Shown: piece after piece, positions 44,902 to 55,153 of the stretch
Layout of the letters: each line of letters starts with the position of its first letter
Position numbering within the stretch: the first letter of the stretch is position 1
Assembly (NCBI RefSeq): GCF_005871205.1
Contig: NZ_SWKM01000011.1
Location: forward strand, 930,001 to 994,000
Length of the DNA stretch: 64,000 bases
Source: Marinobacter alexandrii
GTDB lineage: Bacteria > Pseudomonadota > Gammaproteobacteria > Pseudomonadales > Oleiphilaceae
Direction of reading: 5' to 3'
The notes under the pieces: generated by a model
Database searches by the model: none
What the model was told of the DNA's origin: nothing
Seen by the model: the letters and a program-made list of their open reading frames with translations, nothing else
Position numbers and translations under genes: made by a program

Positions 44902-44953
44902 AACGCCAGCTCATCCGCTCCGAGATTCGGGGTTGGGATCGGTTGGCGTTTTT
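44902..44953 (+). terminator. Structured terminator-like element upstream of atoE
   Basis: AACGCCA (44902-44908) pairs with TGGCGTT (44944-44950), followed by TTT; CTCCGA/TCGGGG and ATCC/GGAT inside can extend the fold. It ends 36 nt before the atoE start. It is probably the terminator of efpL-DCC, though its closeness to atoE leaves room for a leader role. Confidence 0.55.
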
Positions 44954-44989
44954 GCGTTAACACCAATAACAATACCGCGAGGACATTCT

Positions 44990-46303
44990 ATGTTGCAGAG
45001 ACTGACCAACGGCTCAGTGAAACTGGTCGAGCGTTATCTGCCCGATCCCTACGTACTGGTCCTGCTGCTTTCGACGGTGGTGTTCGTGGCCGCTATCGCC
45101 TTTGAAGGCCAATCGCCGCTGCAGATGGTGCAGTACTGGGGCGATGGCTTCTGGAACCTGCTGACCTTCGCCATGCAAATGGTCCTGGTCCTGGTCACCG
45201 GCTTCGTGCTGGCCAGCACCCCGTTTTTCCGCACGATCCTCAAGGCCTTGGCGCGGCTGGCCAAATCGCCTGGCCAGGCGGTTATCCTGGTTACGCTGGT
45301 GTCGTTGGCGGCAGCCTGGATCAACTGGGGCTTTGGCCTGGTGATCGGGGCGCTGTTCGCCCGCCAGGTGGCGCGGGAAGTGCCCAGCGTGAACTACCCG
45401 TTGCTGATTGCCAGCGCTTACAGTGGCTTCATGGTCTGGCATGGCGGCCTGGCCGGCTCGGTGCCGCTGGTGATTGCCACCGAAGGCCACTTTACCGCCG
45501 ATATGATTGGCGTGATCCCCACCAGTGAGACCATTTTTGCCCCGTTTAACCTGCTGCTGGTGCTCGCCATGTTCATTGTCATACCAGTGGTGAACAGGCT
45601 GATGATGGGGAAAGATGGCAAGCACGTTGACGCCATCAAGCTGGGTGACGAAGCTCCGCTGCCACCACTGAAGAACGACCGCCCGGCCGAGAAGCTGGAA
45701 AACAGCCTCATCCTGGCTCAGGCCATTGGGGTGATGGGGGTTATTTTTGCTGGTTATTATTTCCTGGCGCGCAGTGGTTCACTGAACCTGAACATCGTTA
45801 ATTTCATGTTCCTGATCCTGGGCATCATCCTGCACGGTCGGCCGTCCCGCTTCATTGCCAGTGCCACCGAGGCGGTTAAAGGCTCTACCGGTATTATCAT
45901 CCAGTTTCCGTTCTACGCCGGCATCATGGCGATGATGGTGGATTCCGGGCTGGCCAGCAGTCTGTCCAACTGGTTTGCCAGTGTTGCCAACCCGACCACC
46001 TTCCCGCTGTTCACCTTCCTGAGTGCCGGAATCGTCAATATCTTCGTGCCGTCTGGTGGTGGCCAGTGGGCGGTGCAGGCACCGATTATGCTGGAAGCCG
46101 GCGCCGCGCTGGGTGTCGAGCCGGCCCGCACGGCCATGGCGGTGGCCTGGGGTGACGCCTGGACCAATATGATCCAGCCGTTCTGGGCGCTGCCGGCGCT
46201 GGCGATTGCAGGCCTGTCTGCCAAGGATGTCATGGGCTACTGCCTGATCGTGTTGTTGGTTACCGGCGTGGTGCTGGGCTTCGGGCTGATGTTTTTGCCC
46301 TGA
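44990..46303 (+). CDS. atoE: Short-chain fatty acid transporter, AtoE family
   Basis: The 437-residue membrane protein has the AtoE pattern: VERYLPDPYVLVLLLSTVVF at the start, AWINWGFGLVIGALFARQVA, HGGLAGSVPLVIAT and FVPSGGGQWAVQAP further on, with about 10-12 helices. It is thought to import butyrate-like acids. GCGAGGA precedes the ATG at 44990. No CoA-transferase (atoDA) or thiolase genes are adjacent. Confidence 0.88.
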   Translation: MLQRLTNGSVKLVERYLPDPYVLVLLLSTVVFVAAIAFEGQSPLQMVQYWGDGFWNLLTFAMQMVLVLVTGFVLASTPFFRTILKALARLAKSPGQAVILVTLVSLAAAWINWGFGLVIGALFARQVAREVPSVNYPLLIASAYSGFMVWHGGLAGSVPLVIATEGHFTADMIGVIPTSETIFAPFNLLLVLAMFIVIPVVNRLMMGKDGKHVDAIKLGDEAPLPPLKNDRPAEKLENSLILAQAIGVMGVIFAGYYFLARSGSLNLNIVNFMFLILGIILHGRPSRFIASATEAVKGSTGIIIQFPFYAGIMAMMVDSGLASSLSNWFASVANPTTFPLFTFLSAGIVNIFVPSGGGQWAVQAPIMLEAGAALGVEPARTAMAVAWGDAWTNMIQPFWALPALAIAGLSAKDVMGYCLIVLLVTGVVLGFGLMFLP

Positions 46304-46389
46304 GCTTCCGCTCTATTGAGGAGTCCGGCTCTGCATGGGCCGGACCCGCTGTCAATGGATAGGCTTCGGGAACCAGGGCTGACAGGGTG

Positions 46390-48255
46390 TCAGTCTTGTT
46401 CGTTTTCGCTCACCATTAAAGAGTTAGCCTCGAAGATTCTCTCCGGTGAAACCGGCCGGCAAAAATAATAGCCTTGGGCAACGTCACAATGGCTCTCATT
46501 AAGAAATGCTAATTGTTCGGCCGTTTCTACGCCTTCCGCCACGACTCGCATATTTAACTGGTGCCCCAGCGCGATGATGACGCGGGTTATCGATTCATCG
46601 TCCTGGTTAGAACAGATGCCGTCGATGAATGATTTGTCGATCTTGAGCGTGGACACCGGAAATTTCTTCAGGTAACTAAAGCTGGAATAGCCGGTGCCAA
46701 AGTCGTCGATTGCGAACTTTATACCCAATTTTTTTAGGTCTTTCATGACCGAAAACGCTTTGGTGGCATCGGCCATGAGAAGGCTTTCGGTAATTTCCAG
46801 TTCGAGATACTGAGGGTCCAGATCCGACGCTACCAGAGCCTGCTCAACGGACTCGAGAAACTGCTCGTGACTGAACTGCTTGGCAGAAACGTTTACCGAT
46901 ACGGTGATCGGCGGATGTCCCTCAAGTTGCCACCGTCGATTCTGTCTACAGGCTTCGTTGAGAACCCAGCCTCCGACGTCAATAATCGCTCCTGATTCTT
47001 CGGCCCGGGGGATGAATCTACTTGGAGGAATGTTTCCCTGTTCAGGGTGTTCCCACCGTATCAATGCTTCCACGCCAATCGTTTTTTTTGTTTTTTGGTC
47101 TACCTGAGTCTGATAGGCCAGTCGGAACTCTCCGTCCGTCAATGCCCGGGCAATACCTTCGTTCATTTCCAGGCGCTGATGAACGAGTTCGCTAAGCTCC
47201 TTGGAATAAAAGCTGAAAGCATCTCTGCCATTGCTTTTGGCATCGTACATAGCGAGATCCGCTGCTCTTAACAGGTCTACCACCGTTGTCCCATCCTCCG
47301 GGTATCTGGCAACACCGACGCTGCTCGTGACCTTGACCATTTTCCCGGATAAGGCAACGGGTTGAGCTATTGCCGAGCGAATTTTATTGACCAGAGCCTC
47401 TATGGACTCGGTATCGTCCGGGTAATCTTCAATCAGAATGATGAATTCGTCGCCCCCGAGGCGAGAGAGCGTGTCCGAGGCGCGAATGGAAGACAGTATT
47501 CGGCGACCCAGCGTTCTCAGAAGCTTGTCACCCGAGGCGTGGCCTAGCGAGTCGTTCACATCCTTGAAGTTGTCCAGATCGATAAACAGCAACAGGACCG
47601 ATGGTGGATACGATAACGAGATACTGATCGCCGACTCCAGTTTATCTTGCAGGAATTTGCGATTGGGTAGACCCGTCAAGGAGTCGTGATGAGCCAAATG
47701 AAACAGCTTGGCATAGGAGGTGCGCAAGGCCTTCAGCGGCAGGGTTCGCAGTGAAAGTGCAACGTAAAGGCCGAGCAATCCGCATATCGCTGCAAGAAAG
47801 GTGGTGTCGATCAACACCTCACGCATTGAATCCTCCACGCGAAAGAAGCCTACATGTTGGGTTGCATCAAATAGAGGTGTGTCGTGTTTGATGAGGGGGG
47901 CAGGGGGTGGTTGGTCAGTATTCTCGGCCAGTACCTCGCCATCGAGAGTGACAATGCTGAATCGATTCTGGTTTCGGGGCAATTGCTCTGCAGCTTCACT
48001 TTCTGCGACACGGTTTTCTACCAGCGCATTGAGCGTGTGCTCCTCAAATTTCCACATGTCGGGGTTTTTGTTGATGGCGTCTATGACCATTGACCCATGA
48101 ATTCGGCTCATTGCTTGGATGGCGGCGCGTTCATGCTCGTATTTCATGGCGAGATAACTGGCAGGGATTCCCAACCCAATCACAAGCGCAATGATGACTG
48201 GGGCAATACTGAGGTATCGTTCGATTTGTGAACTGGAGGAACGATTTGTGCTCAT
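46390..48255 (-). CDS. Membrane-bound GGDEF-EAL protein (c-di-GMP turnover)
   Basis: A 621-residue protein: first helix (APVIIALVIGLGIPASYLA, about 18-36), a periplasmic part of about 110 residues, second helix (about 148-170), GGDEF domain with intact active site (RLGGDEFIILIED) and EAL domain (GVEALIRWEHP; later DDFGTGYSSFSYL). Both domains look catalytically competent, so it may make or break c-di-GMP depending on signal. Its ATG overlaps the stop of a PstS-like binding protein gene (TAATG), which suggests that the binding protein delivers the signal to the periplasmic part. Confidence 0.92.
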   Translation of the reverse strand: MSTNRSSSSQIERYLSIAPVIIALVIGLGIPASYLAMKYEHERAAIQAMSRIHGSMVIDAINKNPDMWKFEEHTLNALVENRVAESEAAEQLPRNQNRFSIVTLDGEVLAENTDQPPPAPLIKHDTPLFDATQHVGFFRVEDSMREVLIDTTFLAAICGLLGLYVALSLRTLPLKALRTSYAKLFHLAHHDSLTGLPNRKFLQDKLESAISISLSYPPSVLLLFIDLDNFKDVNDSLGHASGDKLLRTLGRRILSSIRASDTLSRLGGDEFIILIEDYPDDTESIEALVNKIRSAIAQPVALSGKMVKVTSSVGVARYPEDGTTVVDLLRAADLAMYDAKSNGRDAFSFYSKELSELVHQRLEMNEGIARALTDGEFRLAYQTQVDQKTKKTIGVEALIRWEHPEQGNIPPSRFIPRAEESGAIIDVGGWVLNEACRQNRRWQLEGHPPITVSVNVSAKQFSHEQFLESVEQALVASDLDPQYLELEITESLLMADATKAFSVMKDLKKLGIKFAIDDFGTGYSSFSYLKKFPVSTLKIDKSFIDGICSNQDDESITRVIIALGHQLNMRVVAEGVETAEQLAFLNESHCDVAQGYYFCRPVSPERIFEANSLMVSENEQD

Positions 48256-49115
48256 TAATAGTCTCCGACGATGCCGCCATACTTAACAATTATGGCCCTC
48301 GCTTCGTCAGTCTGAAGGTAGGTTAGGAAGCTGTTTGCGAGGGCGGAGTTCGTTGGTTTTTCTATTGCGTAGATCGTCTTGCCGATCGGGTATTTGCCGG
48401 AGTTTAGATTTTTTAGGGTTGGCGCTACACCATCCAGCCTCAAGATATTGATACGTCGATTTTCTGCTCGTAGAAGTATCAAAGAGGTGACGCCAATAGC
48501 TCCTTTAATGGACGCGAGGTCGTCGGCGGCGTCAGAATCGGTTGCAGCGACATTCTTTCCGGTGCGCTTGTGGGCAGTCAGCATTGCTTGGCGGAGATTG
48601 TCACTCATATCCATGAGAATTTGAGTGTCTGCGTCTTTAAGTGGTCTTAGAACTGGGCGCGCCAAGGCGCCGTTTCCCCAGTGGGTCATTTCTCCAGATA
48701 AGATGTTGGCGACTTGGTCGGAGGTGATTGCGCTGATTTCTATTGCCGGGTGCGTTGCTATCACGAGAGGCGTTCGAAAGAGCCGTGTCGCAATAAGGCC
48801 TCGCTGGAGCTCCTCCTCTTTCAGTTCCCGTGAGCTGAAACTGACAGTCAGTTTGTCTGCTACCAGCGCTTTGACTCCTCCTCCGCTGCCGAGGCTCGGG
48901 TAAACTACCGTTTTAACAAGAGGGTGATGACGCTCGTATGCCTTTACCAAGATTTTGAGAATGCCAGTCGCTGCGCCCGTACCGCCCACGTACAGGCTGC
49001 CTTTGGCGGCTGGCGGTGCTCGTTCAGTACTTGAAGCATTCAAGCCAGACGCGAAGGACAGTAACATTACGATTGTAAGGCCAGCAGGAGCAAGGCGGCG
49101 GACGTTGCATTTCAT
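48255..49115 (-). CDS. PstS-like periplasmic binding protein, probable signal input for the GGDEF-EAL protein
   Basis: A 286-residue protein with a signal peptide (LAPAGLTIVMLLSFASGLNA) and the fold of phosphate-type binding proteins: LYVGGTGAATGILKILVKAY, PSLGSGGGVKAL (anion-binding loop region) and SFSSRELKEEE. No phosphate permease genes are near. The stop overlaps the start of the GGDEF-EAL gene, so it is more likely a ligand sensor than part of a transporter. Ligand (phosphate or another oxyanion) not established. Codon use is somewhat AT-richer than in neighbours. Confidence 0.8.
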   Translation of the reverse strand: MKCNVRRLAPAGLTIVMLLSFASGLNASSTERAPPAAKGSLYVGGTGAATGILKILVKAYERHHPLVKTVVYPSLGSGGGVKALVADKLTVSFSSRELKEEELQRGLIATRLFRTPLVIATHPAIEISAITSDQVANILSGEMTHWGNGALARPVLRPLKDADTQILMDMSDNLRQAMLTAHKRTGKNVAATDSDAADDLASIKGAIGVTSLILLRAENRRINILRLDGVAPTLKNLNSGKYPIGKTIYAIEKPTNSALANSFLTYLQTDEARAIIVKYGGIVGDY

Positions 49116-49318
49116 ATATGTGCCCTAATGCTACATACTTTTATTGTAGGCGTTGCCCTAAGGCCACATTGTTGTCTTGTTGTAATTTTGTGTAGTGGGC
49201 AGACTGGCGTGATCAGGCTTCATCTATGACGATTTTTGGCATTCTAATAACCCCACTCATGCAAAAATAATGATAGAACATGGTTCCTTAACCGCCATCT
49301 GAAATTGGAAGAACTTTG

Positions 49319-49810
49319 ATGTCAGAATGTTCCGCAAAGTCTGTCTCGGCCTCCGCCATAGAAAAGCACGTCTATAAAGTCTTTCCTAACGATATGAATG
49401 CCCATAACACGGTGTTCGGGGGCATGATCATGGCCAAATGTGATCGTCTCGCTCTTGTAGTTGCCGAAAGGCATTCGGCCCGTGTGTGCGTGACCGCCGC
49501 GGTGGATTCCATCCATTTTCGGGCGCCTGCCAAAGGGAACGACACCCTGCTGTTCAGCCTGTCACTGAACCGCAGCTGGGGCTCGTCCATGGAGATTGGT
49601 GCGCGGGTGGAGGCGGAGAACAGCTACACCGGCGATACCCGTCATATCCTGTCAGCGTTCTTTACCTTCGTGGCCCTGGATGAAAACGACAAGCCAGTGG
49701 ATGTGCCCGAGGTGGTGCCAGAGACGGATGAACAGGCGCGCCGGTTCGCGAACGCCGAGGTGCGTCGCGACGGGCGCCTGAAGACCCGCGAGAAACTGGC
49801 CAGCCGCTGA
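49319..49810 (+). CDS. Hotdog-fold acyl-CoA thioesterase
   Basis: The 163-residue protein has the hotdog pattern of YciA/BACH-type thioesterases: VFPNDMNAHNTVFGGMIMA with the Asn/Asp active-site region, VDSIHFRAPAKGNDTLLF and a strand with GARVEAENSYTG. It hydrolyses acyl-CoA to free acid and CoA. GGAAG precedes the ATG. It is a single gene, divergent from the PstS-like gene. Confidence 0.88.
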   Translation: MSECSAKSVSASAIEKHVYKVFPNDMNAHNTVFGGMIMAKCDRLALVVAERHSARVCVTAAVDSIHFRAPAKGNDTLLFSLSLNRSWGSSMEIGARVEAENSYTGDTRHILSAFFTFVALDENDKPVDVPEVVPETDEQARRFANAEVRRDGRLKTREKLASR

Positions 49811-49918: not shown

Positions 49919-50695
49919 TTGGATCAGATCAAGCCCCTGCCGATAGGCGCCCAGCACTACATTCTCATGCTGATTCCGAGGCTTATCCGGGATATTGAGG
50001 AGCTGGGGTTGCCCCATATTATCCGGACGTCCAGCTTTACTGAGCGGGAAGTCACCACCCTCTATTTCGAGTTCGTTTCCATAAACCGGGTGCTTCCGAC
50101 TGACCCAGAGCACATTGCGCCTGGGCTGTGGCAGCATCTGATCTACTGTGTGCAGGTGATGAGCGAGATGGTGAATTCCGCCTCCATGGAGGAGCTGGCC
50201 CAGGCCCGGGAGCAAGCCATCCAGAAGTTTTTGCCCCACGCCCGGCAGGCGGTGGAGAAGGAGTACCGCGACCAGTGCAGGGAGGGAGCGGTGGATCTGC
50301 ATCTGGCGGGAGTGTTGCGACAGGACGGCTCGCCGGATCAGTCCCGTGAACTGTGTATGGAGGCAATACGGCTGGAGCGCGAGCAGCGCATAGAGTCAGT
50401 GAAGGGGCTCTCCACCGCCCACCTGGATGCCCACTCGGCGTGCATCGTTGAAGCCGCAAAAGCCTTTGTTGAACAGTCCCATGCTGGCGCACCGGAAGAT
50501 TTCGGGTTGCTGGACCTGGTGGTCCGGTTGCTGGACTTGCTGCGTCTGGTGCACGTGCTGGAAACGTTGCCGGCATCACAGGCGGCGGTCCCGGCTGATT
50601 TTTCCGTCGACAACATCGTGCTGGGCATTGGCAACGCGCTTTACCGCAAGGAACTGGGGCTGCGCTTTAACCAGGTTAAAGCTCCGCGTCCTTAA
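49919..50695 (+). CDS. Hypothetical helical protein
   Basis: A 258-residue protein, probably starting at TTG (49919) after AGCAGG; the first internal ATG (49967) is an alternative. It looks mostly alpha-helical, without signal or membrane segments (for example LLDLVVRLLDLLRLVHVLET). No family recognised. Its last 20 bp overlap the end of the convergent Lrp-type gene. Confidence 0.6.
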   Translation: MDQIKPLPIGAQHYILMLIPRLIRDIEELGLPHIIRTSSFTEREVTTLYFEFVSINRVLPTDPEHIAPGLWQHLIYCVQVMSEMVNSASMEELAQAREQAIQKFLPHARQAVEKEYRDQCREGAVDLHLAGVLRQDGSPDQSRELCMEAIRLEREQRIESVKGLSTAHLDAHSACIVEAAKAFVEQSHAGAPEDFGLLDLVVRLLDLLRLVHVLETLPASQAAVPADFSVDNIVLGIGNALYRKELGLRFNQVKAPRP

Positions 50696-51128
50696 CGTTT
50701 TCCATCACCACAAAGGTACTGGTCTGCAGCACATGGGGCAGGGCAGAGATCTGCTCGCCCAGTACCTGCCGGTACTCAGCCATGTTCCGGGTGCGCACTT
50801 TCAACAGGTAATCGAAGTTGCCGGCAATCATATGACATTGCTCCACCGCGGAAATCTGCTTAACTGAATGGTTAAAGGCGGCCAGGGCATTACTGCTGGT
50901 GTCGTCTAGGGTGACTTGGGCAAAAGCGATATGGGACAGACCGAGTTTGGTCTGGTTCACCAGCGCGGTGTAGCCGGTGATGAAGCCCTGCTCTTCAAGC
51001 CGCCGCATGCGCACCTGGCAGGGTGTTTTGGACAGGCCGACGCGGGACGCCAGTTCGGTCACCGTTATCCGGGAGTTCTTCTGCAGTTCGCGAATTATGG
51101 AGTGATCGATTCTATCCAATTCGACCAT
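50676..51128 (-). CDS. Lrp/AsnC-family regulator, probable PutR
   Basis: A 150-residue Lrp-type protein: winged helix ELASRVGLSKTPCQVRMRRL (about residues 25-44) and a RAM ligand domain. It is divergent from putA across a 395-bp gap. Where PutA lacks its own DNA-binding domain, as here, an Lrp-type PutR often activates putA on sensing proline, so this is the likely role. Confidence 0.87.
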   Translation of the reverse strand: MVELDRIDHSIIRELQKNSRITVTELASRVGLSKTPCQVRMRRLEEQGFITGYTALVNQTKLGLSHIAFAQVTLDDTSSNALAAFNHSVKQISAVEQCHMIAGNFDYLLKVRTRNMAEYRQVLGEQISALPHVLQTSTFVVMENVKDAEL

Positions 51129-51523
51129 AGGGTCTTTACCTTTGTGCGTAAATGGCCTGTTTGCGGCCTGAATATAATCAAAAAACCTGCTCGTGGAAAC
51201 TTCTTAGCCAATTTGGCTGTCTGGTTTTAAAGGCACATTGATCTTCAGACGACCTCAAGACGTACGCCCTAGTGAGGCACTGGAAATGTTCATCGGCAAC
51301 AGCCTCAAGTCGCACTCCTTTGCGAACGTGACGTTACCCTGTACTGGTCAGAAGTGCCCAGGCGAAGGAAAGTTGGCTAGAACATCGAATTATTAAGGCA
51401 AATTCATAAATTATTCCCGCATAAAAAAGACATTTAGCCTCGTGTGTTTGGTTTTTAAAGAGAAATAGTCTTTGTCGTTCTCGGTAGAATGCCGGCAAGA
51501 CAATTAATGAAGAGGGTGTAGCT
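51129..51523. other. Divergent regulatory region between the Lrp-type gene and putA
   Basis: No gene is seen in these 395 bp. The putA-proximal half (51370-51480) is AT-rich and likely holds the promoter; AGAGGG lies 8 nt before the putA ATG. I could not assign Lrp-type sites or a -10/-35 pair with confidence. Confidence 0.5.
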
Positions 51524-54500
51524 ATGAGACCGCAGCAATCAGAGACGCCGACACTGGTCGACAGCCGGCAGGCCATTCGTGATTACTACCTTGCTGACGA
51601 GCATAAAGTCGTCCATGAGATGATTGCGGGCGCCCAGTTGTCGCCGAGCGAGCGCGAAGCCATTTCGGCCCGTGCCGCTGACTTGGTGCGCAGCGTGCGC
51701 AAGAACGCCAAGCCCACCATCATGGAAAAATTCCTCGCCGAGTATGGTCTGACCACCAAAGAAGGCGTGGCGCTGATGTGTTTGGCCGAGGCCCTGTTGC
51801 GGGTGCCGGACAGCATGACCATCAATGACCTGATCGAGGACAAGATTACCTCCGGCGCCTGGGGCACGCACCTGGGCAAAGCCTCGTCCCAACTGATCAA
51901 CACGGCCACCATTGCCCTGCTGATGACCAGTAACCTGTTGAAGGAATCCGAGCGCAACAGCATCGGCGATACCCTGCGTAGGCTGCTCAAGCGTTTTGGT
52001 GAGCCGGTCATCCGTACCGTGGCGGGCCAGGCCATGAAGGAAATGGGCCGTCAGTTCGTGCTCGGGCGCGATATCGACGAAGCCCAGGACGAAGCCAAAG
52101 ACTACATGGCCAAAGGCTACACCTATTCCTACGACATGCTGGGTGAAGCCGCGCGCACCGACGATGATGCCAAGCGGTATTTCGACTCCTATTCCAACGC
52201 CATCGACAGTATTGCCAAGGCGTGCAAAGGCGATGTGCGCAAGAATCCCGGCATTTCCGTAAAGTTGTCTGCGTTGCTGGCCCGTTACGAGTACGGCAAT
52301 AAAGAGCGGGTAATGAACGAATTGCTGCCCCGTGCCCGCACCCTGGTGAAGAAAGCCGCTGCTGCCAACATGGGTTTTAACATCGATGCCGAGGAGCAGG
52401 ACCGCCTGGACCTGTCCCTGGACGTCATTGAAGAGCTGGTCGCCGACCCGGAGCTGGCCGGCTGGGATGGCTTTGGTGTGGTGGTGCAGGCCTACGGCAA
52501 GCGCTCCTCCTTCGCCCTGGACTGGCTCTACGGGCTGGCCGAGAAGTACGACCGCCGGTTTATGGTACGTCTGGTTAAAGGCGCCTACTGGGATGCCGAG
52601 ATCAAGCGTGCCCAGGTGATGGGTCTGGACGGCTTCCCGGTCTTCACCCGCAAGGCGTGCAGCGACGTGTCGTTCGTTTCCTGCGCGACCAAACTGATCA
52701 ACATGACGGACCGGATATACCCGCAGTTCGCCACCCACAACGCCCACTCGGTGTCCTCGATCCTGGAGCTGGCCAAGCTCAAGGGTGTGAGCAACTACGA
52801 GTTCCAGCGTCTGCATGGCATGGGTGAATCCCTGCACGACGAGGTCCTAAAAGCGAGCGGTGTTCCGTGTCGCATTTATGCCCCAGTCGGGCCGCACAAG
52901 GATCTGCTGGCGTATCTGGTTCGCCGTCTGCTGGAGAACGGTGCTAACAGCTCATTCGTGAACCAGATCGTAGACAAGAACATTACTCCTGAGGAGATTG
53001 CCAAGGACCCGATCGATGCGGTCCGTGAAATGGGCGATAACATTTCCAGCAAGGCCATCGTGCACCCGTTCAAGCTGTTCGGGGACCAGCGCCGCAACTC
53101 CAAGGGCTGGGACATTACCGATCCGGTTACGGTGCAGGAAATTGATGCCGGCCGCGACGCCTTCCGCAGCCACCGCTGGAAAGGCGGCCCGCTGATTGCC
53201 GGTGAGGTATCCGGCACCGAGGTTCAGGTCGTGCGTAACCCGGCCGATCCGGAAGACCTGGTGGGCCATGTCACCCAGGCGACCGATGCCGATGTCGATA
53301 CTGCTATCTCAGCCGCCCGGGAAGGCTTCAAGGCGTGGTCTGCCAAATCCGCGGAAGAGCGCGCCGCCTGCGTACGCAAGGTGGGCGAGTTGTACGAGGA
53401 ACACGCCTACGAGCTGTTCGCACTGACCACCCGCGAGGCGGGCAAGTCACTGCTGGACGCGATCGCAGAGATCCGCGAAGCGGTGGACTTTGCTGAGTTC
53501 TACGCCAACGAAGCCGTCCGGTACAAAGACGCCGGCGATGCCCGTGGCGTCATGTGCTGCATCTCGCCGTGGAACTTCCCGCTGGCCATCTTCACCGGTC
53601 AGATCCTGGCCAACCTCGCCGCCGGTAACACCGTGCTGGCGAAGCCGGCGGAGCAGACCTCCTTGCTGGCAATCCGCGCTGTGGAGCTGATGTACGAGGC
53701 CGGTATTCCTAAAGACGCCATCCAGTTGCTGCCGGGTACCGGTGCCACGGTGGGTGCTGCACTGACGTCTGATTCCCGGGTTTCCGGTGTTTGCTTCACT
53801 GGTTCCACCGCGACCGCACAACGCATCAACAAGGTGATGACCGAGAACATGGCGCCGGACGCTCCGCTGGTAGCGGAAACCGGCGGCATGAACGCCATGA
53901 TCGTGGATTCCACCGCGTTGCCGGAGCAGGTCGTCCGGGACGTACTGGCATCTTCGTTCCAGAGCGCCGGTCAGCGTTGTTCCGCCCTGCGCATGCTGTA
54001 TGTGCAGAAGGACATCGCCGATCACCTGCTGGAGATGCTCTACGGCGCCATGGAAGAGCTGGGTATTGGTAACCCCTGGTTGCTGTCCACCGATGTCGGC
54101 CCGGTCATTGACGAAACGGCCCGCAAGAAGATTGTCGATCACTGCGACAAGTTCCAGCGCAATGGCAAGTTGCTGAAGAAGCTGCCGGTTCCGGAGCAGG
54201 GCCTGTTCGTTTCTCCGGCGGTACTGAAGGTGTCGGGCATCGAGGAAATGGAAGAGGAAATCTTCGGCCCGGTGCTGCACGTGGCGACGTTTGAAGCCAA
54301 GGACATCGACAAAGTTGTCGACAGCGTCAACGCCAAGGGCTATGGCCTGACTTTCGGTATCCACAGCCGGGTTGATCGGCGGGTAGACCGGATCGCCAGC
54401 CGGATCAAGGTTGGTAACACCTATGTGAACCGGAACCAGATCGGCGCCATTGTCGGCTCCCAGCCGTTTGGTGGTGAAGGTCTGTCGGGTACCGGCCCGA

Positions 54501-55153
54501 AGGCGGGTGGTCCGCAGTACGTGCGCCGCTTTATGAAAGGCAACACCGTGGAAGTGCCGGCGCAAACCGGTGGTAAGTCGGTGGATGCCAAGAAGCTGCA
54601 GAGCCTGATTGGCAAGCTGGACTCATTGAAAACCCAGAAGCCGAACGACCGCATGGCCCTGCTCAAGCCGATCTTCGGTGAGGTGCCGGCGCCGCTGGAT
54701 GCCCACGCCGAGGAGATGCCGGGGCCGACGGGCGAACTGAACCGTCTGACCAATCATGCCCGTGGCGTGGTGCTGTGTCTCGGGCCGGATCAGGCAACTG
54801 CGCTGGAGCAGGCCGGTGTGGCGCTGTCTCAGGGCAACAAGGTTGTCGTGGTTGCGCCGGGCGTTGAAGCCAAGGTCAACGAGGCGGCCAAGGCCGGTTT
54901 GCCGATTGTGGGTATCGATGGCCAGTTGGAGCCAGAAGCACTGGCAATCGCCAGCGGTTTTGAAGCCGTGGTCAGCTGTGCCCAGCAGGAGTTGCTGCGC
55001 GACTATCGCCTGGCATTGGCCAAGCGCGATGGCGCGCTGCTGCCGCTGATCACCGAGCACATGCTGGATCAGCGGTTCGTGATAGAGCGTCACCTGTGTG
55101 TGGACACTACTGCAGCGGGTGGTAACGCAAGCCTGATCGCGGCGTCTGAGTGA
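51524..55153 (+). CDS. putA: Bifunctional proline dehydrogenase/glutamate-semialdehyde dehydrogenase PutA
   Basis: A 1209-residue enzyme converting proline to glutamate in two steps. The FAD-dependent proline dehydrogenase barrel (about residues 80-480) shows VRLVKGAYWDAEIKRAQV and YEFQRLHGMGE; the NAD+-dependent dehydrogenase (about 550-1040) shows CISPWNFPLAIFTGQ, FTGSTATAQRINK and the catalytic Cys in SAGQRCSALR. A further C-terminal domain of about 150 residues covers the tunnel. The N-terminal ribbon-helix-helix DNA-binding domain of E. coli PutA (1320 residues) is absent, so it does not repress its own gene. Confidence 0.96.
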   Translation: MRPQQSETPTLVDSRQAIRDYYLADEHKVVHEMIAGAQLSPSEREAISARAADLVRSVRKNAKPTIMEKFLAEYGLTTKEGVALMCLAEALLRVPDSMTINDLIEDKITSGAWGTHLGKASSQLINTATIALLMTSNLLKESERNSIGDTLRRLLKRFGEPVIRTVAGQAMKEMGRQFVLGRDIDEAQDEAKDYMAKGYTYSYDMLGEAARTDDDAKRYFDSYSNAIDSIAKACKGDVRKNPGISVKLSALLARYEYGNKERVMNELLPRARTLVKKAAAANMGFNIDAEEQDRLDLSLDVIEELVADPELAGWDGFGVVVQAYGKRSSFALDWLYGLAEKYDRRFMVRLVKGAYWDAEIKRAQVMGLDGFPVFTRKACSDVSFVSCATKLINMTDRIYPQFATHNAHSVSSILELAKLKGVSNYEFQRLHGMGESLHDEVLKASGVPCRIYAPVGPHKDLLAYLVRRLLENGANSSFVNQIVDKNITPEEIAKDPIDAVREMGDNISSKAIVHPFKLFGDQRRNSKGWDITDPVTVQEIDAGRDAFRSHRWKGGPLIAGEVSGTEVQVVRNPADPEDLVGHVTQATDADVDTAISAAREGFKAWSAKSAEERAACVRKVGELYEEHAYELFALTTREAGKSLLDAIAEIREAVDFAEFYANEAVRYKDAGDARGVMCCISPWNFPLAIFTGQILANLAAGNTVLAKPAEQTSLLAIRAVELMYEAGIPKDAIQLLPGTGATVGAALTSDSRVSGVCFTGSTATAQRINKVMTENMAPDAPLVAETGGMNAMIVDSTALPEQVVRDVLASSFQSAGQRCSALRMLYVQKDIADHLLEMLYGAMEELGIGNPWLLSTDVGPVIDETARKKIVDHCDKFQRNGKLLKKLPVPEQGLFVSPAVLKVSGIEEMEEEIFGPVLHVATFEAKDIDKVVDSVNAKGYGLTFGIHSRVDRRVDRIASRIKVGNTYVNRNQIGAIVGSQPFGGEGLSGTGPKAGGPQYVRRFMKGNTVEVPAQTGGKSVDAKKLQSLIGKLDSLKTQKPNDRMALLKPIFGEVPAPLDAHAEEMPGPTGELNRLTNHARGVVLCLGPDQATALEQAGVALSQGNKVVVVAPGVEAKVNEAAKAGLPIVGIDGQLEPEALAIASGFEAVVSCAQQELLRDYRLALAKRDGALLPLITEHMLDQRFVIERHLCVDTTAAGGNASLIAASE

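Follow-up and report, generated by a model that had tools for sequence, protein, structure and literature searches.

Two overlapping genes lie on the reverse strand of the window, the 64-kb stretch of DNA analysed here. The upstream gene (48255..49115, minus strand) is an open reading frame of 286 amino acids which, on the ORF list, Pfam and a predicted structure, encodes an apparently secreted solute-binding protein of the PstS fold. The downstream gene (46390..48255, minus strand) encodes a receptor of 621 amino acids in the order transmembrane (TM) helix, periplasmic sensor, TM helix, GGDEF domain and EAL domain. Stop and start share one base in a TAATG overlap (48253..48257, minus strand); the coupling of a PstS-like frame to a GGDEF-EAL frame at 48257..48253, described in the initial annotation, is thereby confirmed. 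Taken alone, such an overlap is weak evidence, and the strong evidence is the adjacency of the two genes in all 19 phylum genomes that took no part in profile building, described below.

The same annotation stated that no transporter genes are present. This holds for the Pst system, as pstC, pstA and pstB have no match at E ≤ 1e-5 across the 64 kb, but not for transporters in general, as a gene of the short-chain fatty acid transporter type (44933..46303, plus strand) adjoins the pair and converges on it. Sister genomes carry this transporter without the pair. The gene next upstream of the pair is of the thioesterase type and divergent, and promoter and terminator scans at the pair gave scores no higher than those of shuffled sequence. 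Elsewhere in the window (50676-55153), an Lrp/AsnC-like frame is divergent from a 1209-residue PutA-like frame, both named by eye, in an ordinary arrangement.

The pair occupies an inserted segment (46304..49337) of approximately 3 kb that contains just these two genes. Homology with the sister genomes ends at 46303 (46299 for G055) and is regained near 49337; the segment is absent at the same site in three sisters (G044, G028 and G055), to which the flanks are 88–93% identical in nucleotide sequence. In G044 and G028, the matches to the flanking transporter and thioesterase are 110 and 151 nt apart. In G055 (locus L278), the matched stretch of the transporter ends early and contains a single internal TGA, and the thioesterase match falls into two pieces, irregularities that could be either sequencing error or decay. 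The fraction of G+C, taken in successive windows, is 0.48–0.55 inside the insert versus 0.54–0.63 around it; a single window outside the insert, at 51000, also has 0.48. The sensor domain was found in none of 144 other relatives, and the binding protein as query gives weak matches in 55 of the 144, the best by E-value having 24% identity (E 2.8e-16). Either this genome acquired the 3 kb or all three sisters lost them; these sequence comparisons favour a gain, since the presence of the pair is so narrow.

Architecture of the binding protein and the receptor

The binding protein matches the Pfam family PF12849 PBP_like_2 (E 8.9e-31) and, as the only other family above cut-off, PF13531, and it falls far under the curated cut-offs for PstS (64.5 of 206.6 bits for TIGR02136 and 32.1 of 205 for TIGR00975). 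Its predicted structure, with a mean pLDDT of 89.7, has phosphate-binding proteins as its best structural matches, among them 4gd5 with a Z of 28.3 over 238 residues and an rmsd of 2.6. Sequence and model point to a probable Sec signal peptide at about residues 1–28 (49032..49115, minus strand), with a helix at residues 9–22 and no lipobox seen by eye in this region, and the protein appears to be secreted.

The features of the receptor, all on the minus strand, begin with two hydrophobic segments taken as TM helices, at residues 11–39 (48139..48225) and 146–174 (47734..47820). The loop of about 106 residues between them is a PDC/PAS-like periplasmic sensor (residues 40–145; 47821..48138) with an NPxxW motif, the tryptophan of which, W68, is encoded at 48052-48054. 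This sensor matches no Pfam family, and HAMP has no Pfam match in the receptor up to E 1. The search for its fold gave a best Foldseek E of 1.2e-3 and Z values of about 8–11, graded common by the tool; because these matches are weak, ‘PDC/PAS-like’ is used as a fold label only. The cytoplasmic part consists of a GGDEF domain (residues 188–345; 47221..47694; Pfam E 1.6e-47) and an EAL domain (residues 368–601; 46453..47154; E 5.6e-76). Particular motifs of GGDEF and EAL domains matter for catalysis, and the receptor has intact GGDEF, RxxD I-site, EALIR, NVS, DDFG, KID, EGVE and QG motifs, a sequence consistent with an enzyme that would make or break c-di-GMP.

Near-obligate pairing across genomes

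We built a profile of the sensor from 12 sequences (A3) and one of the binding protein from 11 (A4), drawn from class homologues and named loci, and ran both on the same phylum set of 398 genomes. The sensor profile finds 20 genomes at E ≤ 1e-10. The binding-protein profile finds 81 at E ≤ 1e-20, the top 20 of them at E ≤ 1e-45, followed by a gap to 1e-36; the cut-off of 1e-45 was chosen after this gap was seen. These top 20 are exactly the 20 sensor genomes, and in all of them the two matches are adjacent and on the same strand, with 9–57 nt between the matched parts, so that the pair, which the initial annotation had proposed to look for elsewhere, is adjacent in 20 of 20 sensor-bearing phylum genomes. 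Among the matches listed at E ≤ 1e-10, no sensor occurs in the other 61 binding-protein genomes. All of the 20 but the window’s own are new to the profiles, with 34–50% identity to the nearest profile row; together they fall into 9 genera and 8 families, but a single genus supplies nine of the genomes and a single family eleven, so a hypergeometric value for the co-occurrence does not count as a true probability.

The class set comprises 369 genomes, presumably of Gammaproteobacteria, since locus L032 is the same protein as the named locus L065. Here, each of the five best homologues of the binding protein outside the window (L032–L036, 32–41% identity) has a GGDEF-EAL receptor downstream. A BLAST search with the window’s sensor region found the sensor in four of these five receptors, and the fifth was recognised only in an alignment; the L036/L147 sensor is 14% identical to that of the window and gives no BLAST match. 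At E ≤ 1e-5, the sensor profile has nine matches in eight genomes of this set. Six of the nine come from the window and from rows of the profile and have the pair; the five strong paired class matches, being profile rows, are therefore not new evidence.

The one new strong class match, in G145, has no binding protein within 15.5 kb and none at E ≤ 1e-8 in the whole genome, and two weak partial matches, in G464 (E 3.4e-8) and on contig 33 of G484 (E 3.1e-7), have none within 3.3–3.5 kb. Strong sensor matches outside profile building are thus paired in 19 of 20 cases. The phylum matches listed do not include weaker ones, so looser cut-offs may bring out a larger share of unpaired sensors. A GGDEF-EAL receptor with the same sensor and no neighbouring binding protein (L174, 7992-9935) is a natural orphan for comparison.

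Binding-protein lineages and exchange of outputs

Beyond what the initial annotation described, the same input pair also occurs with histidine kinases. In all 19 new phylum loci, the sensor and a kinase core are encoded in one open frame, and the receptors of L067 and L068 are also kinases (the start codon of the L068 kinase is uncertain, and the start used gives an overlap of 41 nt), whereas the paired class receptors are GGDEF-EAL proteins. Outputs were labelled as histidine kinase (HK), c-di-GMP enzyme (cdG), MCP or Pst by BLAST against reference proteins, with a Pfam check for ten receptors. In a tree of 43 rows, with 5 of 57 Pst rows as the outgroup, the 30 window-type binding proteins form one group with a support of 100/99, and their receptors are 21 histidine kinases and 9 GGDEF-EAL proteins. 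Over the whole of this tree, the histidine kinase output requires 7 changes, at least 5 of them forced, and the GGDEF-EAL output 4, at least 3 of them forced.

A wider tree of 104 rows has one branch (99/96) that splits 23 binding proteins from 81. The cut binding protein of L101 was left out of both trees and L070 out of the 43-row tree. The 81-row side includes all 57 Pst rows, two near-Pst rows and L081, which has a kinase neighbour. The 23-row side comprises 10 cdG, 6 HK and 2 MCP rows, 5 rows that are other or cut, and no Pst row. No receptor was recognised immediately downstream of four of its members (L063, which has a divergent EAL gene, L074, L076 and L160); L070, also on this side, counts as cut because its contig ends just past the binding protein. 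In L063 (988-4759), part of a Bradyrhizobium plasmid classed as conjugative, the binding protein and the EAL-domain protein are divergent and not in an operon.

A second group consists of eight of the 23, and seven of these are followed by a receptor with an HK, MCP or GGDEF-EAL output. The binding proteins of L148–L151, L155, L073 and L075 are of the PBP_like_2 family, have a G-T/S-G-D motif and lie directly upstream (−13 to +77 nt) of the receptors. Pfam was run on six second-group receptors, and every one of them has a HAMP match, that of L075 slightly below the cut-off; dCache is above the cut-off in L148 and weaker in L155 and L075. The sensor of the L148 receptor shows no relation to the window-type sensor profile. 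Because outputs vary within binding-protein groups, the lineages of these sequences appear to follow the type of sensor more than the output.

Separation from the Pst transporter

Neither pstC nor pstA is present at any of the 30 group loci (64 kb inspected for the window and 7–20 kb for the others). Matches to PstB-like ABC ATPases (26–34% identity) are present at 9 of the 30, and we read them tentatively as generic ABC genes. The window’s own genome has a pstC gene above the family cut-off approximately 735 kb away on the same contig; beside it lies a second permease match below cut-off, and just before it an ORF that is PstS-like by eye and keeps SGT. Homologues inside Pst operons are distant from the search query, with at most 29% identity except for a short-segment match of 35% (L141). 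The close relatives of the binding protein are thus not part of Pst operons, whereas membership of such operons in relatives is what the initial annotation had named as counting against a two-gene sensor.

Gene neighbours were also clustered across 30 receptor loci (G145 and 29 that have the pair); the ORF picker used for this caught the binding protein at 21 of them. The only clusters present in at least three families are the binding protein, the receptor or kinase, and an ABC ATPase, and no conserved neighbour among these 30 loci points to the ligand.

An altered binding cup

In the alignment, the segment R157-P-L-K-D161-A-D163-T164 of the binding protein (48624..48647, minus strand) replaces the R-x-x-x-S-G-T loop of PstS. 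We take columns 47 and 161–163 (window numbering) to correspond to phosphate contacts of E. coli PstS. Among the 57 rows of transporter PstS, column 47 is serine or threonine in 55, and columns 161–163 are serine in 38, glycine in 49 and threonine in 47. In the 30-row group, which includes the window, column 47 is glycine in every row, column 161 is aspartate in 26, glutamate in 3 and glycine in 1, and column 163 is aspartate in 29 and glutamate in 1, such that D/E-x-D/E stands in place of the S-G-T loop in 29 of 30. Other positions are conserved in the group: R157 and D193 in 30 of 30 rows, K246 in 29, and S77 and R96 in 27 each. The eight binding proteins of the second group have glycine at column 47, aspartate or glutamate at 161, and serine, threonine or cysteine at 163.

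The exchange of serine or threonine for glycine and of S-G-T for D/E-x-D/E throughout the group makes phosphate a poor candidate, and the ligand is probably another compound. Two added acids beside a kept arginine would fit a zwitterion, a cation or a protonated acid. Oxyacids stay among the candidate ligands, because the proton of a protonated oxyacid can also be taken up by an acid side chain.

A candidate bipartite receptor

We propose, with a probability of about 75%, that the two genes encode one bipartite periplasmic receptor, in which the binding protein docks on the sensor and thereby shifts the balance of the GGDEF and EAL activities. A secreted relative of PstS, free of any transporter, would close on its ligand, and the loaded protein would, by analogy with NspS–MbaA, dock on the short PDC/PAS-like periplasmic domain. 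Docking would alter the bundle of two TM helices, and the changed bundle would shift cyclase (GGDEF) against phosphodiesterase (EAL) activity inside the cell. The initial annotation’s idea of a two-gene sensor, with a soluble protein serving a membrane receptor, gains support from the conserved adjacency, the absence of pstC and pstA from all 30 loci and the split from Pst in the tree. Its choice of phosphate or an ordinary oxyanion as ligand is weakened, both by the altered cup and by the presence of pstC elsewhere in the genome next to a PstS-like ORF that keeps SGT.

That the binding protein does sense phosphate, and reports its supply to the c-di-GMP enzyme, would agree with the PstS fold, with phosphate-binding proteins as the best structural match and with the retention of R157 (30/30), S77 and R96 (27/30 each). 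Glycine at column 47 in 30 of 30 rows, aspartate or glutamate at column 161 in 29 and at column 163 in 30, and scores far from the NCBIfam cut-offs for PstS make it improbable. An equally doubtful explanation is that the binding protein works for an ABC permease encoded far away and merely shares an operon with a receptor that senses alone. PDC-type domains bind ligands directly in solved structures, as given in the structure titles, ABC ATPases lie near 9 of 30 pairs, and the G145 receptor and two weak sensor matches lack an adjacent binding protein; against this stand the adjacency of the pair in every one of the 19 new phylum genomes, pstC and pstA at 0 of 30 loci, and the persistence of the pair while outputs change. 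Least probable is a recent acquisition without a role in this host: an insert missing from three sister genomes, a sensor found in 0 of 144 other relatives and a lower G+C inside the insert (0.48–0.55 versus 0.54–0.63, with one outside window at 0.48) are in keeping with it, but neither frame is truncated and the receptor has its catalytic motifs.

Beyond the bipartite receptor at this locus, a broader and more tentative reading, to which we give slightly less than even odds, is that the pair is a new input module, in which a former PstS protein with a two-acid cup and its near-obligate NPxxW sensor have been traded as a single unit between histidine kinases and GGDEF-EAL proteins. If so, the ligand would be of a new class for the fold, for example a zwitterion (an aminophosphonate or phosphoethanolamine) or a protonated acid (silicic or boric acid). 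To our knowledge, the signals of most c-di-GMP enzymes are unknown. Separate binding proteins beside receptors in several proteobacterial groups would offer a purifiable handle on the ligands of both c-di-GMP enzymes and histidine kinases, and would also show how a transport-type protein can become a signalling protein through a changed cup and partner.

Comparison with known systems

Kinases, chemoreceptors and c-di-GMP enzymes are all represented in the recognised class of receptors that depend on a binding protein (PMC9602780). The window pair has the composition of an SBP-dependent transmembrane receptor, namely a secreted binding protein, as judged from sequence and model, and a two-TM receptor with a periplasmic domain. 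The kind is thus already known, whereas this pair family, its sensor and its cup are apparently undescribed: in the open-licence literature, we found no prior description of such a pair, of its sensor or of the altered cup, and none that couples a binding protein of the PstS type to a GGDEF-EAL receptor. According to a 2022 review, of the binding-protein clan families that occur within c-di-GMP enzymes, only SBP_bac_3 (RmcA) had been studied in c-di-GMP networks (PMC8846402).

PstS of the Pst transporter has the same fold and a distant kinship in sequence, but differs from the window protein in that pstC and pstA adjoin it, it lies on the other side of the tree and it keeps the S-G-T loop. In AioX–AioS and ArrX, similarly to the window-type pairs, the partner of an anion-type binding protein is a sensor histidine kinase and not a transporter (PMC5908839); AioX resembles PhnD, whereas the window protein has no PhnD-type Pfam match up to E 1. 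A figure legend in PMC5908839 labels certain phosphate-binding proteins ‘involved in sensing not transport’. In ScrB–ScrC of Vibrio parahaemolyticus, a periplasmic protein switches a dual-function c-di-GMP enzyme encoded in the same operon (PMC10269520), a likeness to the window pair drawn from description and not from sequence. The ScrABC operon also includes ScrA, which makes the S signal, whereas the window insert has two genes only. For scrBC in V. campbellii, one replicon gave 15 EAL matches, and the seven regions viewed showed no obvious operon of a binding protein and a GGDEF-EAL protein.

A close counterpart is NspS–MbaA of Vibrio cholerae and Sinorhizobium meliloti, in which the gene of a binding protein likewise overlaps the downstream gene of a two-TM GGDEF-EAL receptor, by 3 bp in S. 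meliloti and 16 bp in V. cholerae (PMC9993111). In that system, the ligand occupancy of the binding protein sets the cyclase or phosphodiesterase state (PMC8967002). NspS is a homologue of PotD and MbaA has about 233 periplasmic residues and a HAMP domain (PMC9993111), whereas the window has a PBP_like_2 protein of the PstS fold and a receptor with about 106 periplasmic residues and no HAMP match. The best reading by analogy is that the window receptor would work as NspS–MbaA does, with another family of binding protein and a short sensor.
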